Assembly: GCF_004122035.1 (NCBI RefSeq)
Contig: NZ_SAXA01000002.1
Coordinates: 1 to 64,000 of the forward strand
Source: Ancylomarina salipaludis
GTDB lineage: Bacteria; Bacteroidota; Bacteroidia; Bacteroidales; Marinifilaceae
DNA: 64,000 nt
Direction: 5' to 3'
A program made the position numbers and the translations under genes. Of this stretch, positions 2,477-57,244 are shown piece by piece. Each line of letters opens with the position of its first letter. Positions within the stretch are counted from its first letter, which is position 1. The notes under the pieces are model-generated. The model was not told where the DNA came from. It saw only the letters and a program-made list of their open reading frames with translations, and did no database searches.

Positions 2477-3979
2477 TTAGTACAGCTGAGCGTGACATTC
2501 AGAACATAGCTGTGTTTTCCATTGTTCATCGATATTAATAGGATGCTTGAATTCTAAAGGAGTTTGAAGTGTTGACATTTCCATTTCTCCAGTCTTTCCC
2601 TGTGAGATAATATCATGGCAAAGATTACAATCTCTTGAAATTTTTTCACCTTCTGCCGTTACATGTTTGTCGTTGTGGCAACGGAAACAGCCATTGGTTT
2701 CCAAATGTCCCAGGTGGTTAGGATAGGCCTTCCAAGTAACTCCCATCTCAGGGAAAATATTAGATTTATAGCCATTTTGAATGGCAGTAATTGCCTTTTC
2801 AATTTTGGTTTTACAGGAATCTAATACTTCAGGGTACATCAATCCGTAATATTCCAATACTTGTGCTTTAATTGCGATCATGGCACTATCCGTGGTGGGA
2901 TAATCCTGATTTAAGATATCCATTGACATGACTTTTGCGTCAGGCAACTCTTTTGATATCTCACCCGAAGAGATCAATTCATCGATAAAGTTCTGTGGGT
3001 TTTGGTAGTCGTGTGAAGGTCTGTTATGGCAATCCAAACAATCCATCGTACGGGTTTCAAGACTATCAATTTCTTTTTGACTAAGTTGATTTTCAGGTTC
3101 AATATACAGTTTAACTTTACCAGTTGTTAGGTTTGTGTATTTAACCCAAGGTAAGGTTTCCCGGTTTCTGGATGATGCGATATATTCTATTTTAACATCA
3201 GGGTTAATATGCCAATGAATTCCTTCTGAAATGCCTTTGGCACTTAAGTTGGCACTTGTCTTCATTTTCATGGAGATGTTATTCTCCGTTGTTGTTTCAT
3301 CTGCCAGATAAGATTTCTTATTCTTTAATTTACTATCGTAGAACTTTTGTGGCCAATGGCATTGTTCACATGTTTCACGAGCTGGGCGTAAATTTTCAAC
3401 CGGAGTGGGAATCGGTTTGGGGTATTTTTTTGCAATGACAGAATAAACCTGATATAAACCGGATAGTTTACTTCTAACATACCAGCTGGTACCTTCTCCC
3501 ACGTGGCATTCTACACATTTCACTCGTTCGTGTGAAGATTGATGGTAGGCAGTGAACTCAGGGGCCATGACCTGGTGGCAAAGTTTTCCACAGAATTCAA
3601 CTGATTCGGTATAATGAAAGGCATGATAACTTCCTACAGATGATATAATCATGATAAAAATAGTCCCGAAAATAAAGATCATGCTTGCATTTCGTGTTTT
3701 TTGGTCGTTAAAATCGACTTGAGGCCACTTTAACTGATCTTCAGGGAGGAGATGTTTTTTTAGCTTTCGGTTTGTTCTGATCATTCCTATTGGAATCAGA
3801 ATTAACCCGCCAACAAAAAACATGGGGAGAATAATGTAGATAAATAGTCCTAAATAAGAACTACCTAAATTGTAAAAAAAGGAAAGAGCAAGTAAAAAAC
3901 CAATAATGAAAAGATTCATTGCTGCTATTCCCGCTCCAAGGAGCGATAGCCAGTTTCTGGCTGAATTGGGGAGTTTCAT
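2477..3979 (-). CDS. NapC/NirT-like heptaheme cytochrome c, three N-terminal membrane helices
   Basis: The family passes electrons from menaquinol to periplasmic cytochromes or reductases. The 500-residue protein begins with three membrane helices (about residues 12-36, 45-67 and 98-120) rather than the single anchor of classical NapC/NrfH. Then follow seven heme-binding motifs: an unusual CX3CH (CGKLCH), then CVECH, CEQCH, CLDCH, CFRCH, CNLCH and CSECH. A methionine after the first motif (CHQVM) recalls the first-heme region of NrfH. It is the last gene of the minus-strand cytochrome block and lies 129 bases after the cytochrome b gene. It could be the quinol-oxidising subunit together with that cytochrome b. 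The final electron acceptor is not evident. Confidence 0.8.
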   Translation of the reverse strand: MKLPNSARNWLSLLGAGIAAMNLFIIGFLLALSFFYNLGSSYLGLFIYIILPMFFVGGLILIPIGMIRTNRKLKKHLLPEDQLKWPQVDFNDQKTRNASMIFIFGTIFIMIISSVGSYHAFHYTESVEFCGKLCHQVMAPEFTAYHQSSHERVKCVECHVGEGTSWYVRSKLSGLYQVYSVIAKKYPKPIPTPVENLRPARETCEQCHWPQKFYDSKLKNKKSYLADETTTENNISMKMKTSANLSAKGISEGIHWHINPDVKIEYIASSRNRETLPWVKYTNLTTGKVKLYIEPENQLSQKEIDSLETRTMDCLDCHNRPSHDYQNPQNFIDELISSGEISKELPDAKVMSMDILNQDYPTTDSAMIAIKAQVLEYYGLMYPEVLDSCKTKIEKAITAIQNGYKSNIFPEMGVTWKAYPNHLGHLETNGCFRCHNDKHVTAEGEKISRDCNLCHDIISQGKTGEMEMSTLQTPLEFKHPINIDEQWKTQLCSECHAQLY

Positions 3980-4108
3980 AGGATAAAGATTTAAGTTAAA
4001 CTCCCGATAGATATTATTGGGAGGTAATCGCCCTATAATCGTCTTTTGCAGTCAAACTGTTTCGGTATCGATTAAAATACCGAAACAATTAAACTGACTA
4101 GTATGCTA

Positions 4109-4723
4109 TTAATGCCAACCTGTTAAAATACTTTTAAAATTACTTAATGGTTTTTTTCCAATTGTAGCAAAATACAAGTGGATAATAAGAAATATTGAAA
4201 TTAGAAAACCTATAATCGCATGAAGTAATGCGGTTAAGAATATACCACTTAGCACATAGACTTCCTCAATTATTAATTCAGGTAATAAAAGGGCGATACC
4301 TGTAATAATAATAATGGGAACCATCAGATACATGACTACTACATAGGTGTATTTTTGGATTGGGTTAAATTTTCTTTTTTCTGAAATAGGATAGGGAGCT
4401 TCTTCGTTTTTAAACATTCCATAGGTGTAATAACGGATTTGTTTAAATAAACGTTTACGCAAGCCCTTTGGTTTAATTTTGTAATATTTACTGTTTGAGG
4501 TGACAATATTACCAATGAAAAATGCCAGATAACTGATTGATACAATTATACCTGCATAGTTATGAAGTGTTACAGCTAAATCGAATCGTATCAATTCAAA
4601 TCCAGGTTTAGCGAATTGCATGTTTAATCCGGTATAGATTAAAACGAGAATTCCTAAAGCATTAAAAGCATGCCAAATACGCAACCAAACAGGGTATAAG
4701 TATATTTTTTCTTCTGTACTCAT
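4109..4723 (-). CDS. Four-helix cytochrome b (b561/Ni-hydrogenase b-type)
   Basis: The 204-residue protein has four membrane helices (about residues 13-33, 51-73, 125-150 and 158-188). Histidines H18, H54, H168 and H182 sit in helices 1, 2 and 4 and are suited to bind two b hemes. This is the plan of di-heme b-type subunits of hydrogenases, formate dehydrogenases and thiosulfate reductases, which exchange electrons with the quinone pool. Its gene starts 5 bases after the heptaheme gene at 4729-5649, implying joint translation. It probably forms a membrane complex with one or both heptaheme cytochromes. The assignment to a family is firm, the partner is inferred. Confidence 0.75.
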   Translation of the reverse strand: MSTEEKIYLYPVWLRIWHAFNALGILVLIYTGLNMQFAKPGFELIRFDLAVTLHNYAGIIVSISYLAFFIGNIVTSNSKYYKIKPKGLRKRLFKQIRYYTYGMFKNEEAPYPISEKRKFNPIQKYTYVVVMYLMVPIIIITGIALLLPELIIEEVYVLSGIFLTALLHAIIGFLISIFLIIHLYFATIGKKPLSNFKSILTGWH

Positions 4724-4728
4724 AAAAT

Positions 4729-5649
4729 CTATTTTTTAATGATCCTGAAAAAACTATGAATGATAACTCCAGCAATTACTGCCATGAAAATAAGAATACT
4801 TAAAAGGTTTAAAATCTCATTTTGATAGGCTCCAATTACGTACGATTTGTTTGAAAGGATGACACCGAGTTTACCCTTCGTAGCTCTTGCCTGTATGTTT
4901 TTGTATTTGTATAAAGATGCATTTAAATGTGAATTTGCTGTATGGCAATTAACACATAGTTTAAGTGCTTCCTCTTTAGGTAAAATATTGTGTGATATCA
5001 TCAGTGAATCTTTTACATGAGTATGACACTCGATGCAACGCACACTTTCGAAATGTAGTTTCTGGTTTGGCAGCCAATTATGTGTTTCAACTAGTTTGGG
5101 ATTAACACTATCTGACATCAATTGATATCTTGGGGTGTTATCGTGGCAGGACATACACATATCGTTACTAAATTTAACGATGTCCTTAACATTTTCACTA
5201 GTTCGGGCTTTAGCCTGATAGTAATGTTGGCTGTGACATTTTGAGCAGGTGAATTGTTCCCCTAATGCTTTTGCGTGAGTACTTTTTTTGAATTCTTCTT
5301 CGATTAATTCAAATTTATAATCAGCAAAATTCTCGTCTCCACCATGGCAATCAACACATGTAGAAAGAGGTTCTAATTTCAATTCTCCTTTATGTGGATA
5401 AGTCTCGTAATCAGATGAGTGACAATCGGTACATGCAAAAGAACCGTGAACACCTGCTTTCATTCTTAAAGAATCTAAGATGAAATAAGGATTCATTAAG
5501 CGTTTTTCGTTACGCTCAGTCCAATCATTATATATCGTATGTGTTTGATTTGCATGGCAACGCAAGCAATCATTATCTGCTTTTAGATTCAGTGTAAAAG
5601 AAACTAAAAAGAAAACGAGTAAAGAGATCCTTTGTTGAGAAAAACGCAT
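4729..5649 (-). CDS. Periplasmic heptaheme cytochrome c with C-terminal membrane anchor
   Basis: The 306-residue protein has a signal peptide (about residues 1-24), seven CXXCH motifs (CLRCH, CTDCH, CVDCH, CSKCH, CMSCH, CIECH, CVNCH) and one hydrophobic helix at about residues 278-300, so it is exported and held in the inner membrane from its C-terminus. The heme spacing and extra histidines (for example HTHVKD) recall the cytochrome c3/c7 and NrfB-like group. It lies just upstream of the four-helix cytochrome b, and both probably act as one module. No catalytic site such as a CXXCK motif is visible, so it looks like an electron carrier rather than a reductase. Confidence 0.8.
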   Translation of the reverse strand: MRFSQQRISLLVFFLVSFTLNLKADNDCLRCHANQTHTIYNDWTERNEKRLMNPYFILDSLRMKAGVHGSFACTDCHSSDYETYPHKGELKLEPLSTCVDCHGGDENFADYKFELIEEEFKKSTHAKALGEQFTCSKCHSQHYYQAKARTSENVKDIVKFSNDMCMSCHDNTPRYQLMSDSVNPKLVETHNWLPNQKLHFESVRCIECHTHVKDSLMISHNILPKEEALKLCVNCHTANSHLNASLYKYKNIQARATKGKLGVILSNKSYVIGAYQNEILNLLSILIFMAVIAGVIIHSFFRIIKK

Positions 5650-5713
5650 AGTTTAGATGTAAATTAAAATTCCTGAAATACGAAGACTTCAGGAATTTTT
5701 ATGGGTTGATAAT

Positions 5714-6133
5714 TTATTTCAAAGTTCTCAGATAGTTGATAAGTGCCCATCTGTCTTCCTCATCTAAGATTTTCTTCTCATAGTTAGGCATTTCGTCTCG
5801 ACCAATAATTGACTGATAATATAAAACACCATCAGTTTGAGCTTGGAATTTTTCGCAGTTAAATGGAGGAATAGCCGTTTTCATACTTCTCGCTTTAGGA
5901 CCATCACCTAAACCGTTACTACCATGGCAAGATTTACAATGTTTTGTATAAAGCATTTTACCAATTTTTAATGATGAAGCATCATCTTTAATGGTATTTT
6001 TCATTGTTTTATATTTTGCCGGAATTTCCCATGGGCCTCCCATTTTTTTATCTTGTGGTAAAGCGAAAGCCATAAATAGGGCTCCTGCTAATACTAAAGA
6101 TAAACCTAAAAATATGTTCTTGAATTTTTTCAT
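5714..6133 (-). CDS. Monoheme class I cytochrome c
   Basis: The 139-residue protein has a hydrophobic N-terminus (about residues 7-25) that is either a signal peptide or an anchor, and one heme motif CKSCH at residues 66-70. The usual downstream region with an axial methionine follows (GRDEMPNY), and the protein ends with a typical class I helix (EEDRWALINYLRTL). Such small cytochromes shuttle electrons in the periplasm. Within this block it would link the membrane-bound heptahemes to the outer-membrane components encoded upstream. It is separated from neighbouring genes by 18 and 64 bases, consistent with one operon. Confidence 0.85.
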   Translation of the reverse strand: MKKFKNIFLGLSLVLAGALFMAFALPQDKKMGGPWEIPAKYKTMKNTIKDDASSLKIGKMLYTKHCKSCHGSNGLGDGPKARSMKTAIPPFNCEKFQAQTDGVLYYQSIIGRDEMPNYEKKILDEEDRWALINYLRTLK

Positions 6134-6151
6134 AATTTTAATATTTAGAGA

Positions 6152-7027
6152 TTAAAAATTCCACAATCTTGTAATTGTAAAGCCAATCATAAAATTGTCC
6201 ATATCAATTTTGCTGTGGTTGTTAACTATAATATCTTGTTGAATTAAACCACTCGAATTTCCCATATAAATTTGGAAGGCATGCGTACTGGTTGAAATTT
6301 CATAACCAAAAGATAGGTTTGGTTTAGGATTGTCATAATTTTCTGCAGAGTCCAGATAATCAAGGTCTAGTGGAGCATCGAAATTGAAAATAATCGATCC
6401 TTGTGGCGAAACTTTAAATCGACCATTGAAGTGTAAGGCAAATTTATCATGATAGTTTCCCATGTCAATTAAATTATAGTGAGAGAAACTAACACCGGTT
6501 TGCAAACTGATGGCATCTGAAAATTTTCGTCCAACAATAACTTGCGCGAAAGATGACAAGCGGTTTGAGGATTTAAAATCTTCGTGAAATTGATCCTTAT
6601 CCCGACCATCAATGGCAATATTTCCATAAAGTGCAAGTGCAAGAGGTACTGTGTTATTTCTTGTTTGTTCAAGAATAGTCCATTTGGCATTAAAATCAGT
6701 TGTCATATTTCTTTTTGAAACGCCGATTCCTACCTGAACATTATTTGCAACTACATAGCTTAATCCAAGACGTATGTTTGCACCTGAGGCATATAATCCC
6801 CAAAGATCAGAATGACCATTTTCAACCGTTCCGAATTTGTGTTGAATGGCAAATTCCAATGTGTTTACCGGTTGTATAACAGTTGTTTGATTATCGATTA
6901 AATAACCGCTTTCAAAGGGTGATCTAACGGGCTTGTCAATAACTTTTTCAGTTTCAGTCTCCTGAGCCAGAACGCTTCCAAAAGCAAAAACAAGCAGGAA
7001 TGATAATGTAAATATATTTTTTCTCAT
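6152..7027 (-). CDS. Outer-membrane beta-barrel protein, DUF5777 family
   Basis: The 291-residue protein starts with a signal peptide (cleavage probably after AQ at about residue 22). It then alternates short polar and hydrophobic strands rich in aromatic residues and ends in an aromatic residue (RLWNF), the hallmark of a BAM-inserted barrel. The opening of the mature part (PVRSPFESGYLIDNQT, then LEFAIQHKFGTVENG) matches what I know of DUF5777, a Bacteroidota family often found near cytochrome or YceI genes. No heme motif is present. By position, between a periplasmic cytochrome and two heme lipoproteins, it could form the porin sheath of a porin-cytochrome conduit. That role is inference. 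Confidence 0.7.
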   Translation of the reverse strand: MRKNIFTLSFLLVFAFGSVLAQETETEKVIDKPVRSPFESGYLIDNQTTVIQPVNTLEFAIQHKFGTVENGHSDLWGLYASGANIRLGLSYVVANNVQVGIGVSKRNMTTDFNAKWTILEQTRNNTVPLALALYGNIAIDGRDKDQFHEDFKSSNRLSSFAQVIVGRKFSDAISLQTGVSFSHYNLIDMGNYHDKFALHFNGRFKVSPQGSIIFNFDAPLDLDYLDSAENYDNPKPNLSFGYEISTSTHAFQIYMGNSSGLIQQDIIVNNHSKIDMDNFMIGFTITRLWNF

Positions 7028-7043
7028 AATTGCATGTGTTTGA

Positions 7044-7406
7044 TTAGTTATCCTTAGCTCCTTCAGTAATCCATGTTAATAAAGTAAGACGATCTTTCGA
7101 ACCCATATTTTTGCCGTGTCCGTCAGTGGCTCTTTTGTAAATTTCGCTTTCTGCAGGATTATCTGTATTGATATAGTTTCCGTTTATCAGGTTATCATAT
7201 GCTGAACCTGTTACCAAAATTGGATTTCTGCTATCGTGACATCCAATGCATGTTGTTTGAAAGATAGGTTCAACCTGCGTTGCAAAACTAATCGGATTAT
7301 CAGGATCTGGTTCTGGAGTTGGTGTTTTTTCAACGACGTAATCGTATTCGCAGGCAACTAATCCAATCATGAAAAGGAAAGCTAGTACTTTAATATATCT
7401 TTTCAT
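7044..7406 (-). CDS. Monoheme cytochrome-like lipoprotein
   Basis: The 120-residue protein has a lipoprotein signal ending in LVAC with the lipid-bearing cysteine at residue 19. A short proline-rich acidic linker (EKTPTPEPDPDNP) leads to a small domain with one heme motif, CIGCH. The following part (NPILVTGSAYDNLING, then GHGKNMGSKDRLTLLTWITEGAKDN) has the shape of the small cytochrome/PSCyt1-like domains found in Bacteroidota lipoproteins, with KNMG offering an axial methionine. The acidic residues after the cysteine could favour surface export. It lies 16 bases upstream of the beta-barrel gene. Confidence 0.75.
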   Translation of the reverse strand: MKRYIKVLAFLFMIGLVACEYDYVVEKTPTPEPDPDNPISFATQVEPIFQTTCIGCHDSRNPILVTGSAYDNLINGNYINTDNPAESEIYKRATDGHGKNMGSKDRLTLLTWITEGAKDN

Positions 7407-7605
7407 AAGATTATGATTTTATTAGGAATAATGAGATGATTACTTAATTGAGATATTTCTTTTTATAATATAGCAATAAGCTTGCCATTTCGGTCTCAAT
7501 TAAATAATGTTTTTTGTGGATAGGAATATCCGGATTTATCGGTAAAGGAGTTGTTTAATATTAAAATCAAACAACTCCTCACAAAGATTTATTTTAGTTG
7601 TTGAA

Positions 7606-8667
7606 CTATGGTAATTTATCAATTTCTGCTGCCATAGCTTCAATAGAGTTCTGCAATAAGGCTTTCACGTATTTAGGATTGTGAGCACCAAAACTGCGGT
7701 CTTCTTCTAAGCCAACCCAGTTAAAGAATGCCTGAGCTTGTTTCATAGGATAAGTTCCAACAACAGGGTGATAGCCATCTGTATCATTACCAGCAACAAC
7801 GCCTAAAGTGATTAACTGATCTCTTAGTTCTTCAAGCTTAGCCATAACATCAGTTCTTACACCACCATAATTGAAGTCTGTAAGTTCAGCGTCGTGACAA
7901 GTGTTACATGCTAATAATGAAGGTTTCCATGAGTGACCACCTTCTCCCTCTTCTGAATCGAATGGTGCCATATGACAACCAACACATGAAGCTTGGTTAA
8001 GATGCTTTGACTCTCCTGCAGTTGGGTAGGCAACAGAACCAGCTATTTCAGCAAAACCCATACCTGCAACCACGTTTGCCTGAGCACCATGGTGAGGTCC
8101 ATAATGTGAACTAGTGATTGCAAAAGTTTCTTCACCAGGATTAGTTGTATTAGGTTCAGCTCTTCTTGATTGGTGGCAGTTTGCACATAAATTAGAGTGT
8201 CCCTTTAAATCCATAGTGATTTCCGGATTGAATATTGGCTTAACAGGATCATCTAATCTTAAAGCATAATCAACTGCTTCCATAGTTTTGTGTAAGCCAT
8301 GACAGGTTGCACATTCCCACGCAGTTGGGTTTGTGATATCACCTAGTACTTCACCATTATTTGCATACTGAACAAAGCCTTGGTGTGAGTGGCAACGAGC
8401 ACATGAAGCACGTCCACCAGCATAGTCAACAGCATTTATACCACTGCTGTGCACTGACATGGAAAATTGTGCCTGAATATTTTCTCTGGTATCTCCAGCA
8501 TGACATGACATACATGTGGCATTACCATCAGCACCATCAACACCATCTATTCCGTTGGTGCCATCGGTACCATTTAATCCTGCGGGACCTTGAGGCCCTT
8601 CACAAGCCGCAAATATAGCTCCTACCGATAGGAGAAGAAGCCAAATTCTAAATTGTTTTCGTTTCAT
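7606..8667 (-). CDS. Hexaheme lipoprotein with collagen-like N-terminal repeats
   Basis: The 353-residue protein has a lipoprotein signal ending in FAAC (lipid cysteine at residue 22). Nine Gly-X-Y triplets follow (GPQGPAGLNG to DGADGNA), which is a collagen-like stretch. The first heme motif, CMSCH, comes directly after it. Five more motifs follow: CARCH, CATCH, CANCH, CVGCH and CNTCH. It is the first gene of the minus-strand block and the one closest to the FNR-type regulator. A lipid-anchored multiheme protein on a rigid or trimerising stalk would suit an outer-membrane, possibly surface-exposed, electron outlet. The triplets and motifs are seen; the location and role are inferred. Confidence 0.8.
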   Translation of the reverse strand: MKRKQFRIWLLLLSVGAIFAACEGPQGPAGLNGTDGTNGIDGVDGADGNATCMSCHAGDTRENIQAQFSMSVHSSGINAVDYAGGRASCARCHSHQGFVQYANNGEVLGDITNPTAWECATCHGLHKTMEAVDYALRLDDPVKPIFNPEITMDLKGHSNLCANCHQSRRAEPNTTNPGEETFAITSSHYGPHHGAQANVVAGMGFAEIAGSVAYPTAGESKHLNQASCVGCHMAPFDSEEGEGGHSWKPSLLACNTCHDAELTDFNYGGVRTDVMAKLEELRDQLITLGVVAGNDTDGYHPVVGTYPMKQAQAFFNWVGLEEDRSFGAHNPKYVKALLQNSIEAMAAEIDKLP

Positions 8668-8803: not shown

Positions 8804-8817
8804 TTGATATTTATCAC
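8804..8817 (+). promoter_or_regulatory. FNR-box-like operator near the regulator's start site
   Basis: TTGATATTTATCAC matches 9 of the 10 fixed positions of the FNR box TTGATnnnnATCAA. It would overlap the predicted transcription start, which is where an autorepressor would bind. Confidence 0.5.
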
Positions 8818-8853: not shown

Positions 8854-9549
8854 ATGTTTGGAAAAGGATTAGATGTTTGTTGTGGTTCTTGCCCTCATGC
8901 TTGGCCCAATTTTAAAAATTTGTCTTCTGACGAAATAAAGGAATTGAGTAAACATAGATTTCAATCTAATTTTTCTGCAGGTGAAACAATTTTCAAGGCA
9001 GGTTCTCCTACATCCAGTGCTGTTTTTCTTTCCAGTGGCATAGCAAAAGTATACTTGGAAGGTTTTGATGGGAAGAAAATTATTCTCAATTTGGCAAAAC
9101 CCGGATATTTGTTGGCAGGTCCGGGTAATTATGTTGACTCGACACATCATTATAGTGTTGTGGCATTAACCGATGTTACGGCCTGTTTTATCGATATGAA
9201 TCTGATTAAGTCTTACGTTAGAAAAAATCCGATGTTTGCAGAAGGATATTTGAAAGATATCAGTGGGAAATCCTTACGGATTTTTTATAAAATGATGAGC
9301 CTTGTTCAGAAAAAAATGCCCGGCCGAATGGCTGAGGGCTTATTATCCCTTGCCGATGAGGTATATGGTGCCGATGAATTCAATCCGATTCTATCGAGAC
9401 AGGAATTGGGTGAATTGACTGGAATGGCCAAAGAGAATGTCGTTCGGATAATGAAAGAATTTTGTAATGAAGGTATTATCAGTACAAATGGTTCGACAAT
9501 TACAATTAAGGATAAAGATAAGCTGAAGCTTATTTCGGCTAATGGTTAA
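8854..9549 (+). CDS. Crp/Fnr-family regulator with four candidate Fe-S cysteines
   Basis: The 231-residue protein has a cyclic-nucleotide-binding-like beta-roll (about residues 35-125), a dimerisation helix and a C-terminal winged helix-turn-helix with recognition helix AKENVVRIMKEF. The glutamate and arginine that contact DNA in FNR are kept, while the FNR serine is valine here. Cysteines 9, 10 and 13 at the N-terminus and C111 in the beta-roll (DVTACFIDM) line up with the FNR cysteines that hold an oxygen-sensitive [4Fe-4S] cluster. The start at 8854 is preferred: an upstream TTG at 8788 would add an unlikely leader and cover the operator. It is divergent from the multiheme block and overlaps the 3' end of the next gene. 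Confidence 0.85.
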   Translation: MFGKGLDVCCGSCPHAWPNFKNLSSDEIKELSKHRFQSNFSAGETIFKAGSPTSSAVFLSSGIAKVYLEGFDGKKIILNLAKPGYLLAGPGNYVDSTHHYSVVALTDVTACFIDMNLIKSYVRKNPMFAEGYLKDISGKSLRIFYKMMSLVQKKMPGRMAEGLLSLADEVYGADEFNPILSRQELGELTGMAKENVVRIMKEFCNEGIISTNGSTITIKDKDKLKLISANG

Positions 9550-23951: not shown

Positions 23952-26441
23952 TTAGATGACTTCACTGGTTTCGAGTTTTTTAGATTCAGGTTTTTTTTTA
24001 GTAATTACAGTCTTTGATTCCGTTTTAATTCTCATACCATAGAATGAACGGTATACAAAGAATAAACCAATAGCCAAGAAAACAACGCCAATATAGGGTG
24101 CAAAGTTCGTTCCTCCGGTTTTGTCTGCATTCACAATAAGTTCAATTGCAATTTCAGCAGCTAATAAACCAAAAAGGGTTGAGAATTTAATGACCGGGTT
24201 TAGAGCTACCGAAGAGGTATCTTTATAAGGATCACCAACAGTATCACCAATGATTGTTGCATCGTGAAGCGGCGTGTTTTTTTCTTTTAAATCAACTTCT
24301 ACAACTTTTTTCGCATTGTCCCAGGCACCACCGGCATTGGCCATATACATGGCTTGGAACAAACCGAAAATTGCAATCGAAATCAGATACGAAACAAAGA
24401 AGTTGGGACTAAAGAATGCAAAAGCCAAAGTCAAACTCAGGATGACAGCGAAAATATTCCACATTCCTGTTTGGGCATATTGTGTGCAAATCTTCACTAC
24501 ATTTTTAGAATCTTCGATAGCAGCTTCCGATTTATCCAAATCGATATTCTTTTTAATATATTCTACGGCGCGATAAGCACCGGTTGTAACAGCCTGAATA
24601 GATGCACCCGAGAACCAGTAGATGACAGCACCACCGGTTATTAAACCTAGAATAACTGCAGGATCTGTAAGTTCAATTTGTAATAAAGATTCTCCATTTG
24701 TGAGGATGGTCTTTTTAAGTAAAAGGATGATTGCAAATATCATGGTGGTTGCACCAATAACAGCAGTTCCGATTAATACAGGTTTAGCCGTTGCTTTAAA
24801 GGTATTCCCGGCTGAGTCGTTTTCTTCAAGATTGTGTTTTCCTGTTTCAAAATTGGGTTCAAAACCAAATTCTTGATTGATTTCATTGTTGATATTAGGA
24901 ATCTTTTCGATTTGAGACAATTCGAAAACAGATTGTGCATTATCTGTAACCGGACCGTAACTGTCAACAGCAATGGTAACGGGGCCCATTCCAAGAAATC
25001 CGAAAGCAACTAAACCAAAGGCAAAAATACCAGGATATTCACCAAACAGGCTTAAATCCTGAACGATATAAAATGCCATCGCCATCAGAGCCATCATAAC
25101 CATTCCTTTCCAAAATGCACTGAAATTACCAGCGACCATGCCTGATAGTATAGTCAACGAGGCACCTCCCTGACGAGAAGCAGTCACAACTTCTTGCACG
25201 TGTCGTGATTTTGAGCTGGTAAAAGCTTTAGTGAACTCAGGAATAACGGCAGCCGCTAGTGTTCCACACGAAATGATACTGGAAAGTTTCCACCATAAAC
25301 CTTCGGGTAAATCATTGATTAAAACATAGCTTAAAGCATAAGTTACGATGATTGAAGTGATAGAAGTAATCCATACTAATGAAGTTAATGGAGCTTCAAA
25401 ATCAAAATGTTCCTCTTTTGCATACCGTATTTTTGCAATGGCTTGGTTGATTAGGTATGAGAATACAGATGTAAAAATCATCAAAACGCGCATGGCAAAA
25501 ATCCAAACGATTAGGGTGGATGCAAATTCGACATTAGGCAGTATACCCGTTTCGCCAAACATAAGGATGATAAACGTGATTAGAGCAACACCGGTTACAC
25601 CGTAAGTTTCAAAGCCATCAGCTGTAGGACCAACACTATCACCTGCATTATCACCTGTACAGTCAGCAATAACACCTGGGTTACGTGGATCATCTTCATC
25701 GATTTTGAAAACAATTTTCATTAAATCAGCTCCGATATCAGCAATTTTGGTAAAGATACCACCTGCAATTCTCAAAGCTGATGCGCCTAAGGATTCACCA
25801 ATTGCAAAACCAATAAAACAAGCTCCTGCACTTTCTCCGGGAATAAAAAGCAGGATGGCAATCATCATGATTAGTTCCACACAGATCAGAAGCAAACCAA
25901 CACTCATTCCTGCTTGTAAAGGAATGGACATAACATTGAAGGGTAATTTTCTAAGTGCTGCAAATGAGGTTCTGCTGTTTGCATAGGTGTTTATGCGAAT
26001 ACCAAACCAGGCTACTCCATATGACCCTAGAATACCGAGTACGGTCCAAAGTAAAATAAGTAGAGTTTTGGGAATTGACATGTGAGCCAAAGCAATAAAA
26101 TAGTAGCTAATGGCAACGCCAATAATGGCAAATAAGATAATCAGGAATTTACCTTGTTGTAATAAATAGGTTTTACAGGTTTCGTAGATAATGTTTGAAA
26201 CTTTTGCCATGGAGTGGTGAACAGGCATTTTCTTGATTCTATTGAATTGAACCAGTCCAAATAAAAGACCCAAGACGATAACAACAATACCGTAAAGAAG
26301 TAGATCCCATCCATTAATCCCTCCAAGTCCGTTGAAGACAGATTGCTTTAAACTTGGTACGACCAGATCGGCCTCGCTGGCAAAGCTGTTGATTGGTGCC
26401 AGCAGAAGGCCCAATACAGGTAGTAAAATTGCTTTTTTCAT
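23952..26441 (-). CDS. hppA: Membrane-bound ion-pumping pyrophosphatase, divergent type
   Basis: The enzyme couples pyrophosphate hydrolysis to pumping of protons or sodium ions. At 829 residues it is larger than the usual 670-770 and has about 16 membrane helices. Conserved are EDDPRNPGVIAD, GDNAGDS, the late GGAWDNAKK and GDTVGDPYKDTS. Other signature parts differ: the substrate motif starts DIGADL at residue 235 but reads MKIVF where VGKVE is usual, and the usual DNAGGIAEM is DNAQSVFEL. A lysine (K549, in GNTFKA) occupies the position linked to potassium independence. The start at 26441 precedes a hydrophobic signal-like helix. The ion pumped cannot be told. Confidence 0.88.
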   Translation of the reverse strand: MKKAILLPVLGLLLAPINSFASEADLVVPSLKQSVFNGLGGINGWDLLLYGIVVIVLGLLFGLVQFNRIKKMPVHHSMAKVSNIIYETCKTYLLQQGKFLIILFAIIGVAISYYFIALAHMSIPKTLLILLWTVLGILGSYGVAWFGIRINTYANSRTSFAALRKLPFNVMSIPLQAGMSVGLLLICVELIMMIAILLFIPGESAGACFIGFAIGESLGASALRIAGGIFTKIADIGADLMKIVFKIDEDDPRNPGVIADCTGDNAGDSVGPTADGFETYGVTGVALITFIILMFGETGILPNVEFASTLIVWIFAMRVLMIFTSVFSYLINQAIAKIRYAKEEHFDFEAPLTSLVWITSITSIIVTYALSYVLINDLPEGLWWKLSSIISCGTLAAAVIPEFTKAFTSSKSRHVQEVVTASRQGGASLTILSGMVAGNFSAFWKGMVMMALMAMAFYIVQDLSLFGEYPGIFAFGLVAFGFLGMGPVTIAVDSYGPVTDNAQSVFELSQIEKIPNINNEINQEFGFEPNFETGKHNLEENDSAGNTFKATAKPVLIGTAVIGATTMIFAIILLLKKTILTNGESLLQIELTDPAVILGLITGGAVIYWFSGASIQAVTTGAYRAVEYIKKNIDLDKSEAAIEDSKNVVKICTQYAQTGMWNIFAVILSLTLAFAFFSPNFFVSYLISIAIFGLFQAMYMANAGGAWDNAKKVVEVDLKEKNTPLHDATIIGDTVGDPYKDTSSVALNPVIKFSTLFGLLAAEIAIELIVNADKTGGTNFAPYIGVVFLAIGLFFVYRSFYGMRIKTESKTVITKKKPESKKLETSEVI

Positions 26442-26734
26442 AGGTTTTTCAGTTAGATTTTTTTTTGAGTAGCGACTTAAAATATGCAATATTACTATAG
26501 TCTACAAGATGTTTTTGTAAAAATTATGCCAATTAGAAAATTTTGTCGATTTGGATTGTATCTTGATTTTTATATCTTTAGTATGTGAAGATTAGTTTTT
26601 TAGCTAACTGATTTTTTTTTGATTCAGATCTGTGTAAAGATTTTTATTCCGGCTTTATAATCAAGTTTTGATGTTGAGGACTTCAGTTTACGAAATGCAG
26701 GGTTTATAAATTTATTTGTGGTTTGTTTTAAAGC

Positions 26735-45417: not shown

Positions 45418-48400
45418 ATGAAAACACATGCTTTTATTAAAGTATTATTTCTGTTATTCCTGATTATGGGAAGTTTGCAAGCTCAGAATGTGATTTATAC
45501 AGAAAATTTTAATGATGATATTGGGAAAGGATTTGATGGGGATGTATTGAATGATATCTCAGATGTGAATTGGACTTTAGATGTGAGTACCTGTATTCTT
45601 AACGATGCTGATGATTATGTAAAAGTTGTTGATACAGGTTCTGATCGATTAGAAGCTTTAGATTGCAATGGCGAAGCAATATGGAAGAGTCCTGTTTTAA
45701 ATATTTCTAGCTATACTGGGATTAATATATCTGTTTCTGCCACAGAAACGGGCACGGGTTCCAACGCTGACAATAAATATATAAAACTGTTTTATGTTTT
45801 GGATGGGGGAGTTGAAGTTCCATTTTTTGAAAGTACTGTTGATTGGGGAAGTTCAACTGCTACTGTAAATGGTTTAGAAGGTCTCAGTTTGCAACTTGTT
45901 GCCCGAATGAAAACCACTTATGCCTCAGATAAAATCTACATCGACGATATTTTAGTTACAGGAACTCCCATTATTGTTTCCAATGATGGATCAACTCAGG
46001 CACAGGTTGTTGATTGGATTCCTGCTGATTCGCTTATTTCTTCTTTAGCTGTTGCCGAAGATGATTATAAGGAAGTTTTTCGTTTTCAAATTTCGGATGC
46101 CGGGGATGATGATCTTGAAAGTATTCTGAAAAAAATCAGATTGATACCGGGAGATGTCAACACGGTAAATTGGGCGAATGAGATTGGTGGTTTGCAATTG
46201 AGAATTAATGATAAGATTGTTAATGCTGACTATCAGAAAAGTGAAATAGATCTGATTATTACATTTCCCGACACTGAAGTTGCGGCAATAATCCCTGATG
46301 GGGAGACAATTGATTTATCTCTCTATATATATCTGACTGAAAATTCTATAGATGGATCAATTTTTCAGGCTGCTATTGAGAGCACACATACACAATGGGA
46401 GCTTACTGGAAGTGATTGGTTAGCTGAATTTCCCGGAAATTTGGTGGGGAAAAGTTTTGTTGTTGATGTTGTAGGAACTGAATTAATTTTTACGGATAAA
46501 CCTCCTAAAACAGTTATTCCCAATGAGAATTTTGAACTTGGGGTAAAATCTATTGATACGTATGGCAATCAGGATTTGGTTTCGAATATTCAAGCTAAAG
46601 TTTCCGTAGCTTCAGGCACGGGGGAATTGGCATCCGATTCAGGCTTACAAAAGAATTTGATTACGGGAAAATATACGTGGACAGATTTAAGCTACAACAA
46701 GGCTGAGAATTTCACTATTTTGGTGGAGGCTGAGGGGCTGAAATCTGTGATGAGCGAAAACATTTCGAGCCTGGATGCCAATTCAATTATTCTTAAAGCT
46801 GATTCCGCGATACCTTCCAAAAAATTGAGTTCACTTGCGATTAGCCTGGATGATTCCGAAGTCGTTCTGAATTTTGGAATAAAGGATGAAGCGACTTTTG
46901 ATTCAACACCAACTTTAATTAGCTCAATGAAATTTTATAATAGTCTTAATGATTCAGGCCTTGATTGGAAGAAACATTTGGCTGGTGCCGTTTTATTGAA
47001 GGCTGGTGAAATTATCGCCCAAACGACAAAAATTGAGAAGGACAATATTTCGTTTACATCTTTGGATGTTGAGATTGAAAATGGAACAGAAGTTGAGTAT
47101 GAATTAGGTGTTTATTTCAAGAAAAGTTTATTGCCCGATCATGCTGAATTTCAGGTTGAAATTCGAAATGATCATGATTGGAAAAGCTCAACCACGGGTT
47201 CGTCTCTGTTAAGTGAATTAGCAGAGCCGATTGTGTCAGCTCTGCATAAGATCGAAGTGATTTCTGATCGCTTGTCTTTTATTTCTGTCCCTAAAGGAAT
47301 TGCTCCGGGTGAAGAATTTGCTTTGATTTTAGCAGCAGTTGATATCTGTCAGAATATCGACGAGGATCAAAATTCATTGGTTAATCTAAATTTGATTTCA
47401 GGTGACGGGACTTTATCTCAAACGGGGGCAATTGGTCATTTGGTTGATGGACAATTAAGAATAGATGGATTGACGTATTCAGGTCGTCAGTCTTTCGAAT
47501 TGCAGGCGAGTGGTGATTTGGCTTCAGCCGTTCAGTCAGTTTTTGTGCAAAATGAATCTCTCATTCTTTCTGATGACTTCGAATCACCAAGTCTAAATTT
47601 ATGGGAAAATATTACTGATTGGACTGTTTCTACATATTTACCTATAGAGGGGACTAATAGTCTAAAGCACAATCTGACCAATGCGATTGGTGATAGTTAT
47701 ATCCTGCAACCAATTTCAGAGATTCAAATTGGATCAGAATCGATTTATTGGGAATTTATACTTAAAAATTCAGATTGGGATCCATCCTCAACGAACTTTT
47801 TTGTTTTTCATTTATTGATGGATTTCAATGGTCCCGAATTAGCTGATCAATTTTATTCAGTCGGTGTAAATCTGTCAGGATCGGATGACCTGTTAAGTTT
47901 ATGGAAAACAAACGATGGAGATTCCGAACTCTTGATAAAATCTGATTTTGATTGGAATGAAGATGATCAGCTTGCCATAAAAGTAGAATATACAGCCAAA
48001 GGGGAGTGGAAGCTCTATTATAATCGTTTGGGCAAAAAGGAGAATTGGTTGGAGGCTGGTCGTGCAGAGTCTGAAGTTGTGAATGAGGCTGAAACCTGGT
48101 ACACCGGACTCGAGTTTAATTTTGAAACTGCTTCGCGTGCTGGAGAGCTTTGGTTTGACGATCTAACAATTGAGAGCTATAACACACCTGCTTTTTTGAA
48201 AAATTATGCTGTCTATTCCGATTCAATCGTTCTTACTTTCTCCGAAGATTTGAATTTTTTAGAATCATCAAAGGTGGACTATTTTAGTTTAAAGCGGGAT
48301 GGGGATGACGTTTTTATAAAGGAAATAAATGCATCAAATAAAAAGAATGAGCTGATTTTACAGGTGCAGGAGAAATTGCGAACAGGCAAGTATAATTTAA

Positions 48401-50127
48401 GTTTTGAAGGAATTCAGGATTTGTTTGGTTCGGTTTCTGATCGAATGAATATTGAATTTGATTTTTACGAAAAGCCAAAGCAATACGATTTAGTTATCAA
48501 TGAAATTTTGGCTGATGAATCCCCCCTAGTTGGTTTGCCCGAATATGAATTTATAGAGCTATATAACAGGAGTGCTTATCCGATTAATATTGGTAATTTC
48601 AAATTGAAAGTGGGGCAAACTGAAAAAGATCTATCGGCATTTGAACTTGCTGCAGATGATTATTTGATTTTGTGTTCGAATGCAGCGGTTGATCTTTATA
48701 GCAATTTTGGGAATGTGTTAGGCGTGAGTGGTTTTCCGGCTTTGTCCAATTCCGGAGCAACTGTTTCAATCACATCATCTTCAGGATTATTAATTGATAA
48801 AATCGAGTATTCTTCGGGTTGGTATCAGGATGAAAATAAAAAAGATGGGGGTTGGTCTTTGGAAAGAATCGATTCTAATAATCATTCCTGGCAAGCCGAT
48901 AATTGGCAGGCATCTATGGATGAATCGGGAGGGACACCCGGGAGACAGAATTCTATTGCCGGAATCAATCCGGATGTTATTTCACCTCGTTTATTAAGTT
49001 TTGACTTGATCAATTCGAATACAATCGATTTCTTTTTTAGTGAGGATTTAGAATTGACTCAAGCTTTAATGCTTGAAAATTTTTCTTTAGATCAGGAGAT
49101 GGGGCATCCTGATTCTGTTGTAGAATTTGAGAACGAAAAATTTGCTTTACGACTGACTTTCCCTCAGGATTTTGAACACAATATCCAGTATCGTTTTCAG
49201 TTTTCCGATCTACTTGTCGATTTAGCCGGAAATTCGATGGAAGAGAAGGCATTTGAGTTTCTGCTTGCCGATTTGCCTCAGTCAGGCGATTTGGTTATTA
49301 ATGAAGTGTTGTTTAATCCTTATCCGGGAGGGGCCGACTATATTGAATTGCTTAATATTTCTGATCGAATCATTGATATTCGGGATTTATTTCTCGCCAA
49401 TCGGGATGAAGATTATCAAATTGATCAGATTTATCCTTTGAGTGATCAATCTCAAATGCTGGAAGCAGGGACTTATCTTTTGGTGAGTACCGATACGGCA
49501 AATATCAAGTTGAATTACAGTCATTGTGACGAAAAGACTTTTTTGCAATTGAAGAATTTGCCCTCTTACAATGATGATGAAGGGCGTGTGGTTCTTTTAA
49601 ATGGGAATCAGGAGCCGGTGGATGATTTTGCTTATGACAAGGATATGCACATTCAGAATTTGACATCAGATGAAGGAGTTTCATTAGAGAGAATTAATCC
49701 TTTTAGAGAAACATATTCGATATCAAACTGGATTTCGGCAGCTCAGAGTATTGGCTTTGGTACGCCTGGACTTCAGAATTCTTCCTATGATATTGATGAA
49801 GTTGAAATCAATACGGTTGGATTTAAGAGCAAAACATTTTCACCGGATAATGATGGGGTGGACGATAGGCTTATTATTAATTTTGATCTTGATAAAAGCG
49901 GTTATGTGGCCAATATTCGGGTTTATAATAGTTTTGGATATGAAGTTCGGCGATTAGCCAGTAATTTAACTTTGTCAACAGAGGATGAACTGTTTTGGGA
50001 TGGGTTATTGGCAAATAAAGATAGAGCCCCGATAGGGATTTATGTCATCTACTTTGAATTGTATCATCCTGACGGGGATGTGAAAACCTATAAAAAGACC
50101 TGTGTTTTGGGTGGCAAATTGAAGTGA
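45418..50127 (+). CDS. Large secreted surface protein with lamin-tail domains and FlgD-like C-terminus
   Basis: The 1569-residue protein has a signal peptide (about residues 1-22) followed by beta-rich modules. Two lamin-tail domains begin at about residues 1022 (YDLVINEILADESP) and 1291 (GDLVINEVLFNPYPGG), each preceded by an Ig-like module with the SDSIVLTFSEDLNFLESS or SNTIDFFFSEDLELTQ pattern. The C-terminal 95 residues (from about 1475, SPDNDGVDDRLIINFDLDKSG) form a FlgD/CHU_C-like Ig domain. It is probably an exported or surface adhesin or matrix protein. It lacks a textbook T9SS sorting motif, although the ending KTYKKTCVLGGKLK is comparable to type B variants. Confidence 0.75.
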   Translation: MKTHAFIKVLFLLFLIMGSLQAQNVIYTENFNDDIGKGFDGDVLNDISDVNWTLDVSTCILNDADDYVKVVDTGSDRLEALDCNGEAIWKSPVLNISSYTGINISVSATETGTGSNADNKYIKLFYVLDGGVEVPFFESTVDWGSSTATVNGLEGLSLQLVARMKTTYASDKIYIDDILVTGTPIIVSNDGSTQAQVVDWIPADSLISSLAVAEDDYKEVFRFQISDAGDDDLESILKKIRLIPGDVNTVNWANEIGGLQLRINDKIVNADYQKSEIDLIITFPDTEVAAIIPDGETIDLSLYIYLTENSIDGSIFQAAIESTHTQWELTGSDWLAEFPGNLVGKSFVVDVVGTELIFTDKPPKTVIPNENFELGVKSIDTYGNQDLVSNIQAKVSVASGTGELASDSGLQKNLITGKYTWTDLSYNKAENFTILVEAEGLKSVMSENISSLDANSIILKADSAIPSKKLSSLAISLDDSEVVLNFGIKDEATFDSTPTLISSMKFYNSLNDSGLDWKKHLAGAVLLKAGEIIAQTTKIEKDNISFTSLDVEIENGTEVEYELGVYFKKSLLPDHAEFQVEIRNDHDWKSSTTGSSLLSELAEPIVSALHKIEVISDRLSFISVPKGIAPGEEFALILAAVDICQNIDEDQNSLVNLNLISGDGTLSQTGAIGHLVDGQLRIDGLTYSGRQSFELQASGDLASAVQSVFVQNESLILSDDFESPSLNLWENITDWTVSTYLPIEGTNSLKHNLTNAIGDSYILQPISEIQIGSESIYWEFILKNSDWDPSSTNFFVFHLLMDFNGPELADQFYSVGVNLSGSDDLLSLWKTNDGDSELLIKSDFDWNEDDQLAIKVEYTAKGEWKLYYNRLGKKENWLEAGRAESEVVNEAETWYTGLEFNFETASRAGELWFDDLTIESYNTPAFLKNYAVYSDSIVLTFSEDLNFLESSKVDYFSLKRDGDDVFIKEINASNKKNELILQVQEKLRTGKYNLSFEGIQDLFGSVSDRMNIEFDFYEKPKQYDLVINEILADESPLVGLPEYEFIELYNRSAYPINIGNFKLKVGQTEKDLSAFELAADDYLILCSNAAVDLYSNFGNVLGVSGFPALSNSGATVSITSSSGLLIDKIEYSSGWYQDENKKDGGWSLERIDSNNHSWQADNWQASMDESGGTPGRQNSIAGINPDVISPRLLSFDLINSNTIDFFFSEDLELTQALMLENFSLDQEMGHPDSVVEFENEKFALRLTFPQDFEHNIQYRFQFSDLLVDLAGNSMEEKAFEFLLADLPQSGDLVINEVLFNPYPGGADYIELLNISDRIIDIRDLFLANRDEDYQIDQIYPLSDQSQMLEAGTYLLVSTDTANIKLNYSHCDEKTFLQLKNLPSYNDDEGRVVLLNGNQEPVDDFAYDKDMHIQNLTSDEGVSLERINPFRETYSISNWISAAQSIGFGTPGLQNSSYDIDEVEINTVGFKSKTFSPDNDGVDDRLIINFDLDKSGYVANIRVYNSFGYEVRRLASNLTLSTEDELFWDGLLANKDRAPIGIYVIYFELYHPDGDVKTYKKTCVLGGKLK

Positions 50128-55303: not shown

Positions 55304-57244
55304 TTACTTGTATGAACGTTGAGTTAACTCAACAGTTTCGAATACTAAATCTTCTTTGTGTAAAATAGGATCTTTATCTTCACCTTGGTACTCCCAAGCT
55401 GAAACAAAAGTAAAGTTGTCATCATCACGTTTAGCTTCACCTTCTTCGGTTACAGACTCCTCACGATAGTGACCACCACAAGACTCTTTACGGTTTAATG
55501 CATCGCGAGCCATCAAATCACCTAATTCAAGGAAATCAGCCACACGACCCGCTTTTTCAAGCTCGATATTCATTGCATCAAAATCACCAGGGATGCGAAC
55601 ATTTTTATAGAAATCAGCTTTGATTTTAGCAATCTCTTCGATAGCAAATTTCAAGCCTTTCTCATTACGAGCCATTCCAACGTAATCCCACATGATGTTT
55701 CCTAAACGCTTGTGGAATGAGTCAACAGACTTATCACCTTTTACATTGTAAAGACGCTCTAAACGTTCCTGAACAGCTTTTTCTTTCTTTTCGAATTCAG
55801 GGTGATTCAATTCAATACGAGGTGTTTGAATTTCATCAGCCAAATAATCACCAATAGTGTAAGGAAGGATGAAGTATCCATCAGCTAAACCTTGCATCAA
55901 GGCAGAAGCACCCAAACGGTTACCACCGTGATCAGAGAAGTTAGCCTCACCAATAGCATAAAGACCCGGGATGTTTGTCATCAAGTTGTAATCAACCCAT
56001 ACACCACCCATTGAATAGTGAATTGCAGGATAGATTTGCATTGGCTCGTTGTATGGGTTTACATCAGTAATTTTCTCATACATTTGGAATAAGTTTCCAT
56101 AACGAGCTTCGATAACATCACGACCTAAACGTTCGATAGAATATTTAAAGTCAAGATAAACAGCTTTACCTTCAGCATTAACACCGAAGCCAGCATCGCA
56201 ACGCTCTTTTGCAGCACGAGATGCTACGTCACGTGGTACCAGGTTACCGTATGAAGGGTATCTTCTCTCTAGGTAGAAGTCACGATCTTCATCAGCGATA
56301 TCATTAGGTCCCATTTCACCTTTTTGCAATTTAATTGCATCTTCTTTTTTCTTTGGAGTCCAAACACGACCATCATTACGAAGGGATTCAGACATCAAAG
56401 TTAATTTAGATTGTTGTTCACCGTGAACAGGAATACAAGTTGGGTGAATTTGTACGAAACAAGGGTTTCCAAAATATGCACCATTCTTGTAAGCTTGCCA
56501 TGCAGCACCACCATTACAACCCATAGCATTGGTTGAAAGGAAGAATACGTTACCGTAACCACCGGTAGCGATTACTACAGCGTGAGCACCATGACGCTCA
56601 ACTTCACCAGTAACCAGGTTACGAGTGATGATACCACGGGCTTTACCATCTGCAATGACAATGTCAAGCATTTCGTTACGCTCATGCATTTCGATTTTAC
56701 CTTGTCCGATCATGCGGTTCATTGATGCGTAACATCCCAATAGCAACTGCTGTCCGGTTTGACCACGAGCATAGAATGTACGACTTACCAATACACCACC
56801 GAATGAACGGTTAGATAGTGTTCCGCCATACTCACGTGCAAAAGGTACACCTTGAGCCACACATTGGTCGATGATGTCACCACTTACTTCAGCCAAACGG
56901 TATACGTTGCCTTCACGTGCACGGTAGTCACCACCTTTAATTGTATCATAGAATAAACGATAAATTGAGTCATTATCGTTTTGATAGTTTTTTGCAGCGT
57001 TAATACCACCCTGAGCAGCAATAGAGTGAGCTCTACGGCCTGAATCCTGGTAGCAAAATGCTTTTACGTTGTATCCCATCTCTGCCAAAGAAGCAGCAGC
57101 AGACCCACCGGCCAAACCAGTTCCTACAACGATAATATCTAATTTTCTCTTATTAGCAGGGCTAACTACTTTAATAGCAGCTTTGTGTTTTGACCACTTC
57201 TCAGCTAATGGCCCGGCTGGAATTTTTGAATTTAATACTGTCAT
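55304..57244 (-). CDS. sdhA: Succinate dehydrogenase/fumarate reductase flavoprotein subunit
   Basis: The catalytic subunit interconverts succinate and fumarate with a covalently bound FAD. The 646-residue protein has the dinucleotide fold ([19 protein letters not shown]), the FAD-attachment histidine in [15 protein letters not shown], the substrate-binding HPTC and the active-site [36 protein letters not shown] region. Length is normal for the b558 class. It lies 19 bases after sdhC and 3 before sdhB. Confidence 0.97.

Follow-up and report, generated by a model that had tools for sequence, protein, structure and literature searches.

Electron-export systems of the MtrCAB or porin-cytochrome conduit (PCC) type combine a quinol oxidase, periplasmic hemes, a barrel and outer lipoproteins, and the barrel of the MtrB type has 26 strands. 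Cyc2 is a fused cytochrome-porin, in which one heme is paired with one outer-membrane barrel. In the inner membrane part of such routes, ImcH is required for the reduction of high-potential acceptors. Here we describe seven minus-strand genes (g1–g7 in the order of transcription, positions 2477–8667) of Ancylomarina salipaludis (Marinifilaceae), located in a 64-kb stretch of DNA (the window) on contig 12 of the 4.15-Mb genome. The block contains the same kinds of parts as MtrCAB and PCC. Major differences can be observed: the barrel is a DUF5777 protein with 12 predicted strands, its partner is a monoheme lipoprotein, and the genome contains no MtrB/PioB match. The ratio of one heme per outer-membrane barrel resembles Cyc2, but the heme lipoprotein and the 12-strand barrel are encoded by separate genes. 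The block is a variant of known systems for electron export in which the step at the outer membrane is unexplained. We slightly favour the reading that it forms a respiratory route, induced under anaerobic conditions, which takes electrons from quinol to the outer membrane; the acceptor would most likely be extracellular, for instance Fe(III) or Mn(IV) oxide.

The seven genes carry 22 heme motifs, 21 of the CX2CH type and one CX3CH that occurs only in g7 (Table 1). In a scan of both strands from stop to stop, g1, g2, g4, g5 and g7 are the sole open reading frames (ORFs) of at least 60 residues with a CX2CH motif in the window. An earlier first-pass annotation of this DNA had given the same coordinates and counts, which our analysis confirms. 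Its assignment of g3 to DUF5777 is borne out by a PF19089 score of 241.3 bits against a cut-off of 23.1. Families of the window proteins were assigned from Pfam and NCBIfam.

Homologs of ImcH are described as proteins of about 500 residues with three transmembrane segments, an adjacent atypical CX3CH motif and 5–9 CX2CH motifs (Zhong and Shi 2018, PMC6295460). The 500-residue g7 has these features. Its Kyte-Doolittle hydrophobic segments (residues 13–31, 44–62 and 98–116) are followed by a CX3CH motif next to the membrane domain (CGKLCH, 130) and then by six CX2CH motifs. None of the seven heme motifs, including C130, C134 and H135, varies across 23 sequences, which come from 22 of 26 eligible loci and the window. 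The likeness to ImcH of Geobacter sulfurreducens is drawn from the published feature description, not from a sequence alignment; the nearest solved relative of g7 is NrfH, and a plasmid search with g7 returned no match. In the available text of PMC6295460, ImcH homologs are reported only in Fe(III) reducers, a single Bacteroidetes homolog is counted in 2018, and mtrAB is reported never to adjoin imcH, whereas g7 sits with a barrel and an OcwA-like lipoprotein. Outside the block, contig 53 of the same genome encodes a 485-residue four-heme protein of the NapC/NirT type (about 201.3–202.7 kb; L148, 5289–6746).

The second inner-membrane module consists of g5 and g6. In addition to its seven CX2CH motifs, g5 contains seven other ectodomain histidines that are invariant in 30 sequences (29 of 60 and the window), so that all of its hemes could be bis-histidine coordinated. 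A single hydrophobic segment is found at its C-terminus (279–297). The cytochrome b g6 matches PF01292 above the cut-off (8e-26); its best NCBIfam match, the thiosulfate reductase type NF011582 (4.6e-48), is below cut-off, as are TIGR02125 (4e-13) and TIGR01583 (3e-11). The four histidines previously proposed as heme ligands (H18, H54, H168 and H182) are conserved without exception in 26 sequences (25 of 58 and the window). A PDB search with the g6 profile gave no match at E 0.01. Together, a multiheme c-type part and a PF01292-type cytochrome b are the features shared with CbcL, MtrH and MtoC, and on this sequence likeness g5 and g6 may constitute a quinol:cytochrome oxidoreductase resembling a split CbcL. 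In the published account available to us, CbcL is one chain with nine motifs and six helices, whereas g5 and g6 are two separate ORFs with seven hemes.

Modules of the CbcL/MtrH/MtoC type are reported in Fe(III) reducers and Fe(II) oxidisers alike (PMC6295460), and Cyc2-like iron oxidases in other Bacteroidota metagenome-assembled genomes (MAGs; PMC9769843). The same chain could also work in reverse and supply the quinone pool with electrons from Fe(II), a cathode or a partner cell. We consider such electron uptake quite improbable, given the ImcH-like g7 in this block with its reported restriction to Fe(III) reducers, and given that the Labilibaculum in culture, which belong to the same family, combine fermentation with metal reduction (PMC5760507).

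The favoured outward route from quinol is reflected in the gene neighbourhood of related barrels. Contigs were scanned with a 15-row barrel alignment, and the best 80 of 127 confirmed stretches were retained; they were picked by barrel similarity, not by their neighbours, and short contigs were kept in the counts. Within 10 kb of the barrel, homologs were found of g2 in 77 loci, g5 in 61, g6 in 60, g1 and g4 in 58 each, the regulator in 52 and g7 in 26. The conserved core is g2-g3-(g4)-g5-g6; g1 and g7 change position or are missing from the neighbourhood. Barrels mostly without multiheme genes, the outcome named by the first-pass annotation as refuting its reading, did not appear for the block-type barrel, which has g5 in 61/80 and g1 in 58/80 of the loci. 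Of the two lipoproteins whose constant company with the barrel it had asked about, g2 is present in 77/80 and g1 in 58/80 loci within 10 kb. The seven-gene block is real in A. salipaludis but not one tight operon everywhere.

Four inner-membrane modules alternate or combine at these loci: complete g5 and g6 in 60, an ImcH-like protein in 26, a module of the Fe-S and NrfD type in 13 loci, and in 11 a CbcL-like fusion with 19 hemes (complete in 10; L089 holds only a piece). At least one quinol module is present within 10 kb in 73/80 loci, as a whole module in 72 and as only g5 or g6 in one. Two examples of the CbcL-like type adjoin the barrel block: in L047 (12366–15167) a 19-heme protein is fused to cytochrome b, and in L046 (6758–9474) a 14-heme ORF is followed by a three-heme cytochrome b ORF. 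The record titles of all 80 loci indicate Bacteroidota, with isolates including Ancylomarina, Marinifilum and Sunxiuqinia, and the MAG names of several loci suggest groundwater, lakes and sediments.

The g2 gene directly adjoins the barrel in 78/80 loci, 77 by script together with L135, in which g2 is overlapped by an overlong barrel ORF call. The 77 include L139, although its g2 scores only 30 bits; of the remaining two loci, L118 begins at a contig end and no g2 was found in L136. This adjacency, together with the co-occurrence of the barrel with multiheme g1, g5 and g7, argues against a periplasmic cytochrome network that serves microaerobic oxidases or peroxide defence and to which the barrel is unrelated. 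Consistent with such a network, g2 and g4 belong to general types of monoheme cytochrome, cbb3 oxidases are encoded in Marinifilaceae (PMC5760507, PMC9765461), and the flanking genes of the relatives, which the family searches did not cover, may include an oxidase or peroxidase. We nevertheless regard it as very improbable, the least probable of the readings weighed here.

Export by the block genes is also consistent with their distribution over whole genomes. Among 58 near relatives, a block-type barrel (at least 165 bits) is present in 19 and a full-length or nearly full ImcH-like protein (at least 390 bits) in 17; all 17 are within the 19 and none is among the other 39. Two of the near relatives, G010 and G053, have short NrfH-like matches only. 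We then scored 295 genomes drawn from the order, with the block-type barrel defined by at least 233 bits to the profile of barrel alignment A2 (70 of 76 eligible loci and the window). The barrel was found in 76 genomes, g5 in 65, g1 in 72 and an ImcH-like protein in 57, the last reduced from 58 when the match in G324, a 59-residue fragment, was dropped. The barrel is present in 51/57 genomes with an ImcH-like protein vs 25/238 without, in 61/65 with g5 and in 66/72 with g1 (Fisher p of 2.5e-31, 1.3e-43 and 1.6e-47, respectively, with genomes treated as independent and shared ancestry ignored). Either g5 or an ImcH-like protein occurs in 70 of the 76 barrel genomes. The ImcH-like gene lies within 12 kb of the barrel in only 24 of the 51 genomes, so linkage alone does not explain the co-occurrence. 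In total, 117 genomes are barrel-positive; 41 of them have a lower-scoring paralogous barrel only, and four of these 41 contain an ImcH-like protein (G085, G133, G168 and G228).

OcwA, a surface reductase of Thermincola potens, contains two open hemes, each under a His-His motif, and reacts with amorphous iron oxide, nitrite and hydroxylamine (PMC6703420). It is the best PDB profile match of g1 (6i5b, 3.5e-16), ahead of NrfA; MtrC trails both, by profile only (9e-8). The AlphaFold2 (AF2) model of g1, calculated from 39 rows (38 of 61 eligible sequences and the window), has a pLDDT of 84.8, and its top Foldseek match is again OcwA (E 4e-5, TM 0.50 by query). As in OcwA, the model has an NrfA-type core and a C-terminal bundle of long helices (267–287, 308–323 and 331–350). 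H192 is invariant in 39/39 rows and an HH motif is kept in 26/39; judged from its order along the chain, the motif may occupy the same pocket as the His-His motif of OcwA. Differences are also apparent. OcwA has nine hemes and g1 six, and OcwA resides on a Gram-positive cell surface, whereas g1 is a diderm lipoprotein on a collagen-like stalk: a Gly-rich collagen-like stretch precedes the first heme in all 39 aligned sequences, and in the window g1 it follows the lipobox cysteine. As g1 is nearest to OcwA, an NrfA-related metal-oxide reductase, a reductase-family subunit is present in the block, contrary to the first-pass annotation, which had seen no known catalytic reductase subunit. It is likely that g1 is the terminal reductase or the outer electron-releasing subunit.

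The same features allow another reading, which is the main rival to metal-oxide export and which we hold as a tentative possibility. Here g1 would be an NrfA/OcwA-like reductase that is anchored in the outer membrane, faces the periplasm and acts on something soluble (nitrite, hydroxylamine, a metalloid or a sulfur oxyanion), the barrel would act as a porin for this acceptor, and g7, g5, g6 and g4 would feed electrons. The g1 profile and fold also align with NrfA and with eight-heme nitrite reductases, its HH resembles the motif over the open hemes of OcwA, and g3 is similar to general channels of small size (for example OmpG, NanC and KdgM). Set against this, all six g1 motifs are CXXCH and none is the CXXCK that is present in most, though not all, NrfA (PMC6703420); the nearest solved relative is OcwA and not NrfA; and ImcH homologs, as noted above, are reported from Fe(III) reducers. 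In addition, the host encodes a separate NrfHA-like pair elsewhere in the genome, its NrfH judged by PF03264 and its NrfA by CWTCK and four CXXCH. An assignment of g1 as NrfA itself was rejected owing to the absence of CXXCK and the presence of this pair.

The AF2 model of g3 is a barrel of 12 strands with a mean pLDDT of 89.6 and a pTM of 0.82. Its best solved Foldseek matches are FapF, the COG4313 channel, OmpG, NanC and KdgM, with a TM of about 0.5 that corresponds to general barrel similarity, and no MtrB- or PioB-type entry is among the best 50 of 963 matches. The MtrB/PioB barrel family PF11854 has no match in the genome, a negative that lacks a positive control, as none of the 14 control genomes gave a match above cut-off either. 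One barrel of 12 strands falls far short of the MtrB type in size, which makes a multiheme insert unlikely; the modelled g3 is probably too small for a multiheme chain. The heme chain through the pore that had been envisaged earlier is thus disfavoured by the predicted strand number. As MtrAB-like threading is unlikely, electrons would have to cross by a single-heme step, via an oligomer or with a soluble relay. Barrel residues H63 and H249 are invariant in the 71 sequences of A2, and also in a set of 12 that includes nine paralogs; a role as ligands of a lumenal heme is unsupported, as both are on the outward-facing parity of their strands. With the reductase subunit and the heme wire corrected, the outline of the electron outlet proposed in the first-pass annotation is partly supported: its inner-membrane parts match the quinol oxidases of extracellular electron transfer (EET), with ImcH features in g7 and a CbcL-like g5 and g6.

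A more far-reaching reading, which we consider rather unlikely, is that the DUF5777 barrel and the monoheme lipoprotein are a new outer-membrane electron gate. A single heme would take electrons across at the small 12-strand barrel with no multiheme wire. At least four quinol modules, each able to replace the others, would supply the gate, OcwA-like reductases would usually accompany it, and it would be of Bacteroidota origin, independent of MtrAB and Cyc2. Across 77 loci, the g2 heme motif is CX2CH in 59, CX4CH in 16 and CX3CH in one, and one (L137) has none. Loss of the g2 heme in Lentimicrobium-type relatives was considered and rejected, as these carry CX4CH or CX3CH. The replacement of CX2CH by CX4CH is seen in L080, L084, L086, L087, L090, L093–L096 and L098 (some rows by eye); in this type GSM often stands in the region that otherwise holds a later His, which may reflect a change of ligand.

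In the export route that we favour, quinol would be oxidised at two parallel sites, the ImcH-like g7 and the cytochrome b g6, the latter handing electrons to the anchored heptaheme g5. The soluble g4, with g2, would carry them over the periplasm to a putative outer-membrane station formed by the barrel g3 and the monoheme g2. The OcwA-like g1 on its collagen-like stalk would then deliver electrons to the acceptor, close to the outer membrane or beyond it. Among acceptors, metal oxides are the likeliest: Fe(III) reduction and, in one strain, Mn(IV) reduction are reported for Labilibaculum, a member of the same family (PMC5760507). The genes responsible are unknown; the candidates of those authors, in the available text, are NrfHA and a ferric reductase. 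A Labilibaculum MAG (L111) carries the block and apparently also an ImcH-like gene that is unlinked to it (genome G013).

Several points weigh against this route. The Fisher values above disregard shared ancestry. Among the 76 barrel genomes, 25 are without an ImcH-like protein, 15 without g5 and 10 without g1, and six of the 57 ImcH-like genomes are without a block-type barrel, four of these six having a paralogous barrel only. Seven of the 80 loci contain no quinol module, three of them on loci of less than 7 kb. The 12-strand g3 leaves little room for a multiheme chain by which electrons could cross. After the lipobox cysteines no canonical signal for surface export stands out, though no dedicated test for one was made. 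The OcwA superfamily holds soluble-substrate reductases, and OcwA itself reduces nitrite and hydroxylamine. Finally, related DUF5777 barrels exist without the block genes. In the paralogous branch, 0/10 loci examined have an ORF with more than two CX2CH motifs; the barrel is usually near a monoheme protein, and many of these loci have a neighbour of 182–189 residues, read as YceI in L051 and annotated as YceI on three plasmids.

A Crp/Fnr-type regulator gene is divergent from g1, and the gap between them contains an FNR-box-like palindrome that is identical in the four same-genus sequences aligned. Out of 39 divergent regulator-block gaps, some of them from close relatives, 19 contain a box with at most one mismatch (5 perfect) vs 1.5 expected from mononucleotide shuffles. 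The whole window has no excess of such matches (12 vs 9.1 by chance), so it is position and recurrence that carry the evidence. The block would accordingly be FNR-regulated in the export reading and induced anaerobically. Intergenic gaps of 199 nt (g1–g2) and 129 nt (g6–g7) occur within the block. The g1–g2 gap (7407–7605) folds far better than shuffles (z -6.7) and contains strong hairpins, the first of which is kept in four same-genus sequences; these are maybe a terminator or a processing site parting g1 from the rest. A single-operon reading is weakened by this hairpin-rich gap and by the lack of a nearby g7 or g1 in some relatives.

One published gene cluster may correspond to this system. 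A Bacteroidetes_1 MAG was enriched 39-fold on an anode, and a seven-gene cluster was proposed as an uncharacterised EET cluster (PMC8258643). It comprises one predicted β-barrel and six cytochromes, all called multiheme, three of them with transmembrane helices; the likeness is one of description, no families being named in the available text. Besides this study, no such block was found described in the literature accessible on combinations of ImcH, CbcL, Bacteroidota and porins. The available texts of PMC9769843, on Cyc2 in Bacteroidota among others, and of PMC11279179 do not describe it, and a literature search for DUF5777 by name, without subscription papers and preprints, gave no match. 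Possible electron-export pathways are noted in a Prolixibacteraceae genome, where the block genes are not named in the text available (PMC10504345). Deep-sea Marinifilaceae transcribe putative metal-reduction genes highly (PMC9765461), apparently the cytochrome of the Labilibaculum paper rather than this block. The block offers a defined and conserved candidate gene set for the unassigned metal-reduction genes of sediment and marine Bacteroidota. If the export route is true, Bacteroidota, which are common in sediments, own an electron-export route of their own, whose barrel seems smaller than the standard model of electron transfer over the outer membrane requires.

Table 1. Features of the block and its regulatory region in the window.
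Feature	Positions	Strand	Length (aa)	CX2CH motifs	Evidence
g1, hexaheme lipoprotein, OcwA/NrfA-superfamily heme domain	7606..8667	-	353	6	6 CX2CH, profile, AF2 model and Foldseek
g2, monoheme lipoprotein, constant barrel neighbour	7044..7406	-	120	1	gene order, heme motif
g3, DUF5777 outer-membrane β-barrel, 12 predicted strands	6152..7027	-	291		PF19089, AF2, Foldseek
g4, monoheme cytochrome c, probably periplasmic	5714..6133	-	139	1	PF00034 8.6e-12
g5, heptaheme c7-type cytochrome, C-terminal membrane anchor	4729..5649	-	306	7	7 CX2CH, hydrophobic segment
g6, di-heme cytochrome b561-type membrane protein	4109..4723	-	204		PF01292 8e-26, NF011582 below cut-off
g7, ImcH-like heptaheme NapC/NirT-type inner-membrane quinol oxidase	2477..3979	-	500	6	PF03264 1.3e-11, heme motifs
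Crp/Fnr-type regulator, divergent from g1	8854..9549	+			PF13545, PF00027
FNR-box-like palindrome TTGAT-N4-ATCAA, 1 mismatch, regulator-g1 gap	8804..8817	.			sequence match

The DUF5777 barrel family recurs with redox proteins outside the block. Contig 9 of the same genome encodes a paralogous barrel (73383–74186, L051) beside a monoheme lipoprotein and a YceI-like protein. Another paralogous barrel, on an Emticicia plasmid (L144), has a Rieske protein, YceI and a c-type cytochrome as its neighbours, and CcsA is encoded close by. Multiheme genes are absent from both places.

In the Marinifilum-type locus L038 (3137–6315), and at the same place in L039–L045, g6 is followed by genes with a metal-uptake look. 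As read by eye in L038, they encode a His/Cys-rich protein of 150 residues, a TonB-dependent receptor and an HMA-like protein. A catalytic subunit behind g6 was considered for these loci and rejected, as the 741-residue neighbour reads, by eye, as the TonB-dependent receptor beside the HMA-like protein.

Elsewhere in the window, a membrane pyrophosphatase (23952–26489), a malic enzyme-phosphotransacetylase fusion (50182–52440) and a fumarate reductase/succinate dehydrogenase flavoprotein (55304–57244) provide an energy-metabolism setting. The window also encodes a protein of 1569 residues (45418–50127), whose sole Pfam match is a lamin-tail domain (1e-8).

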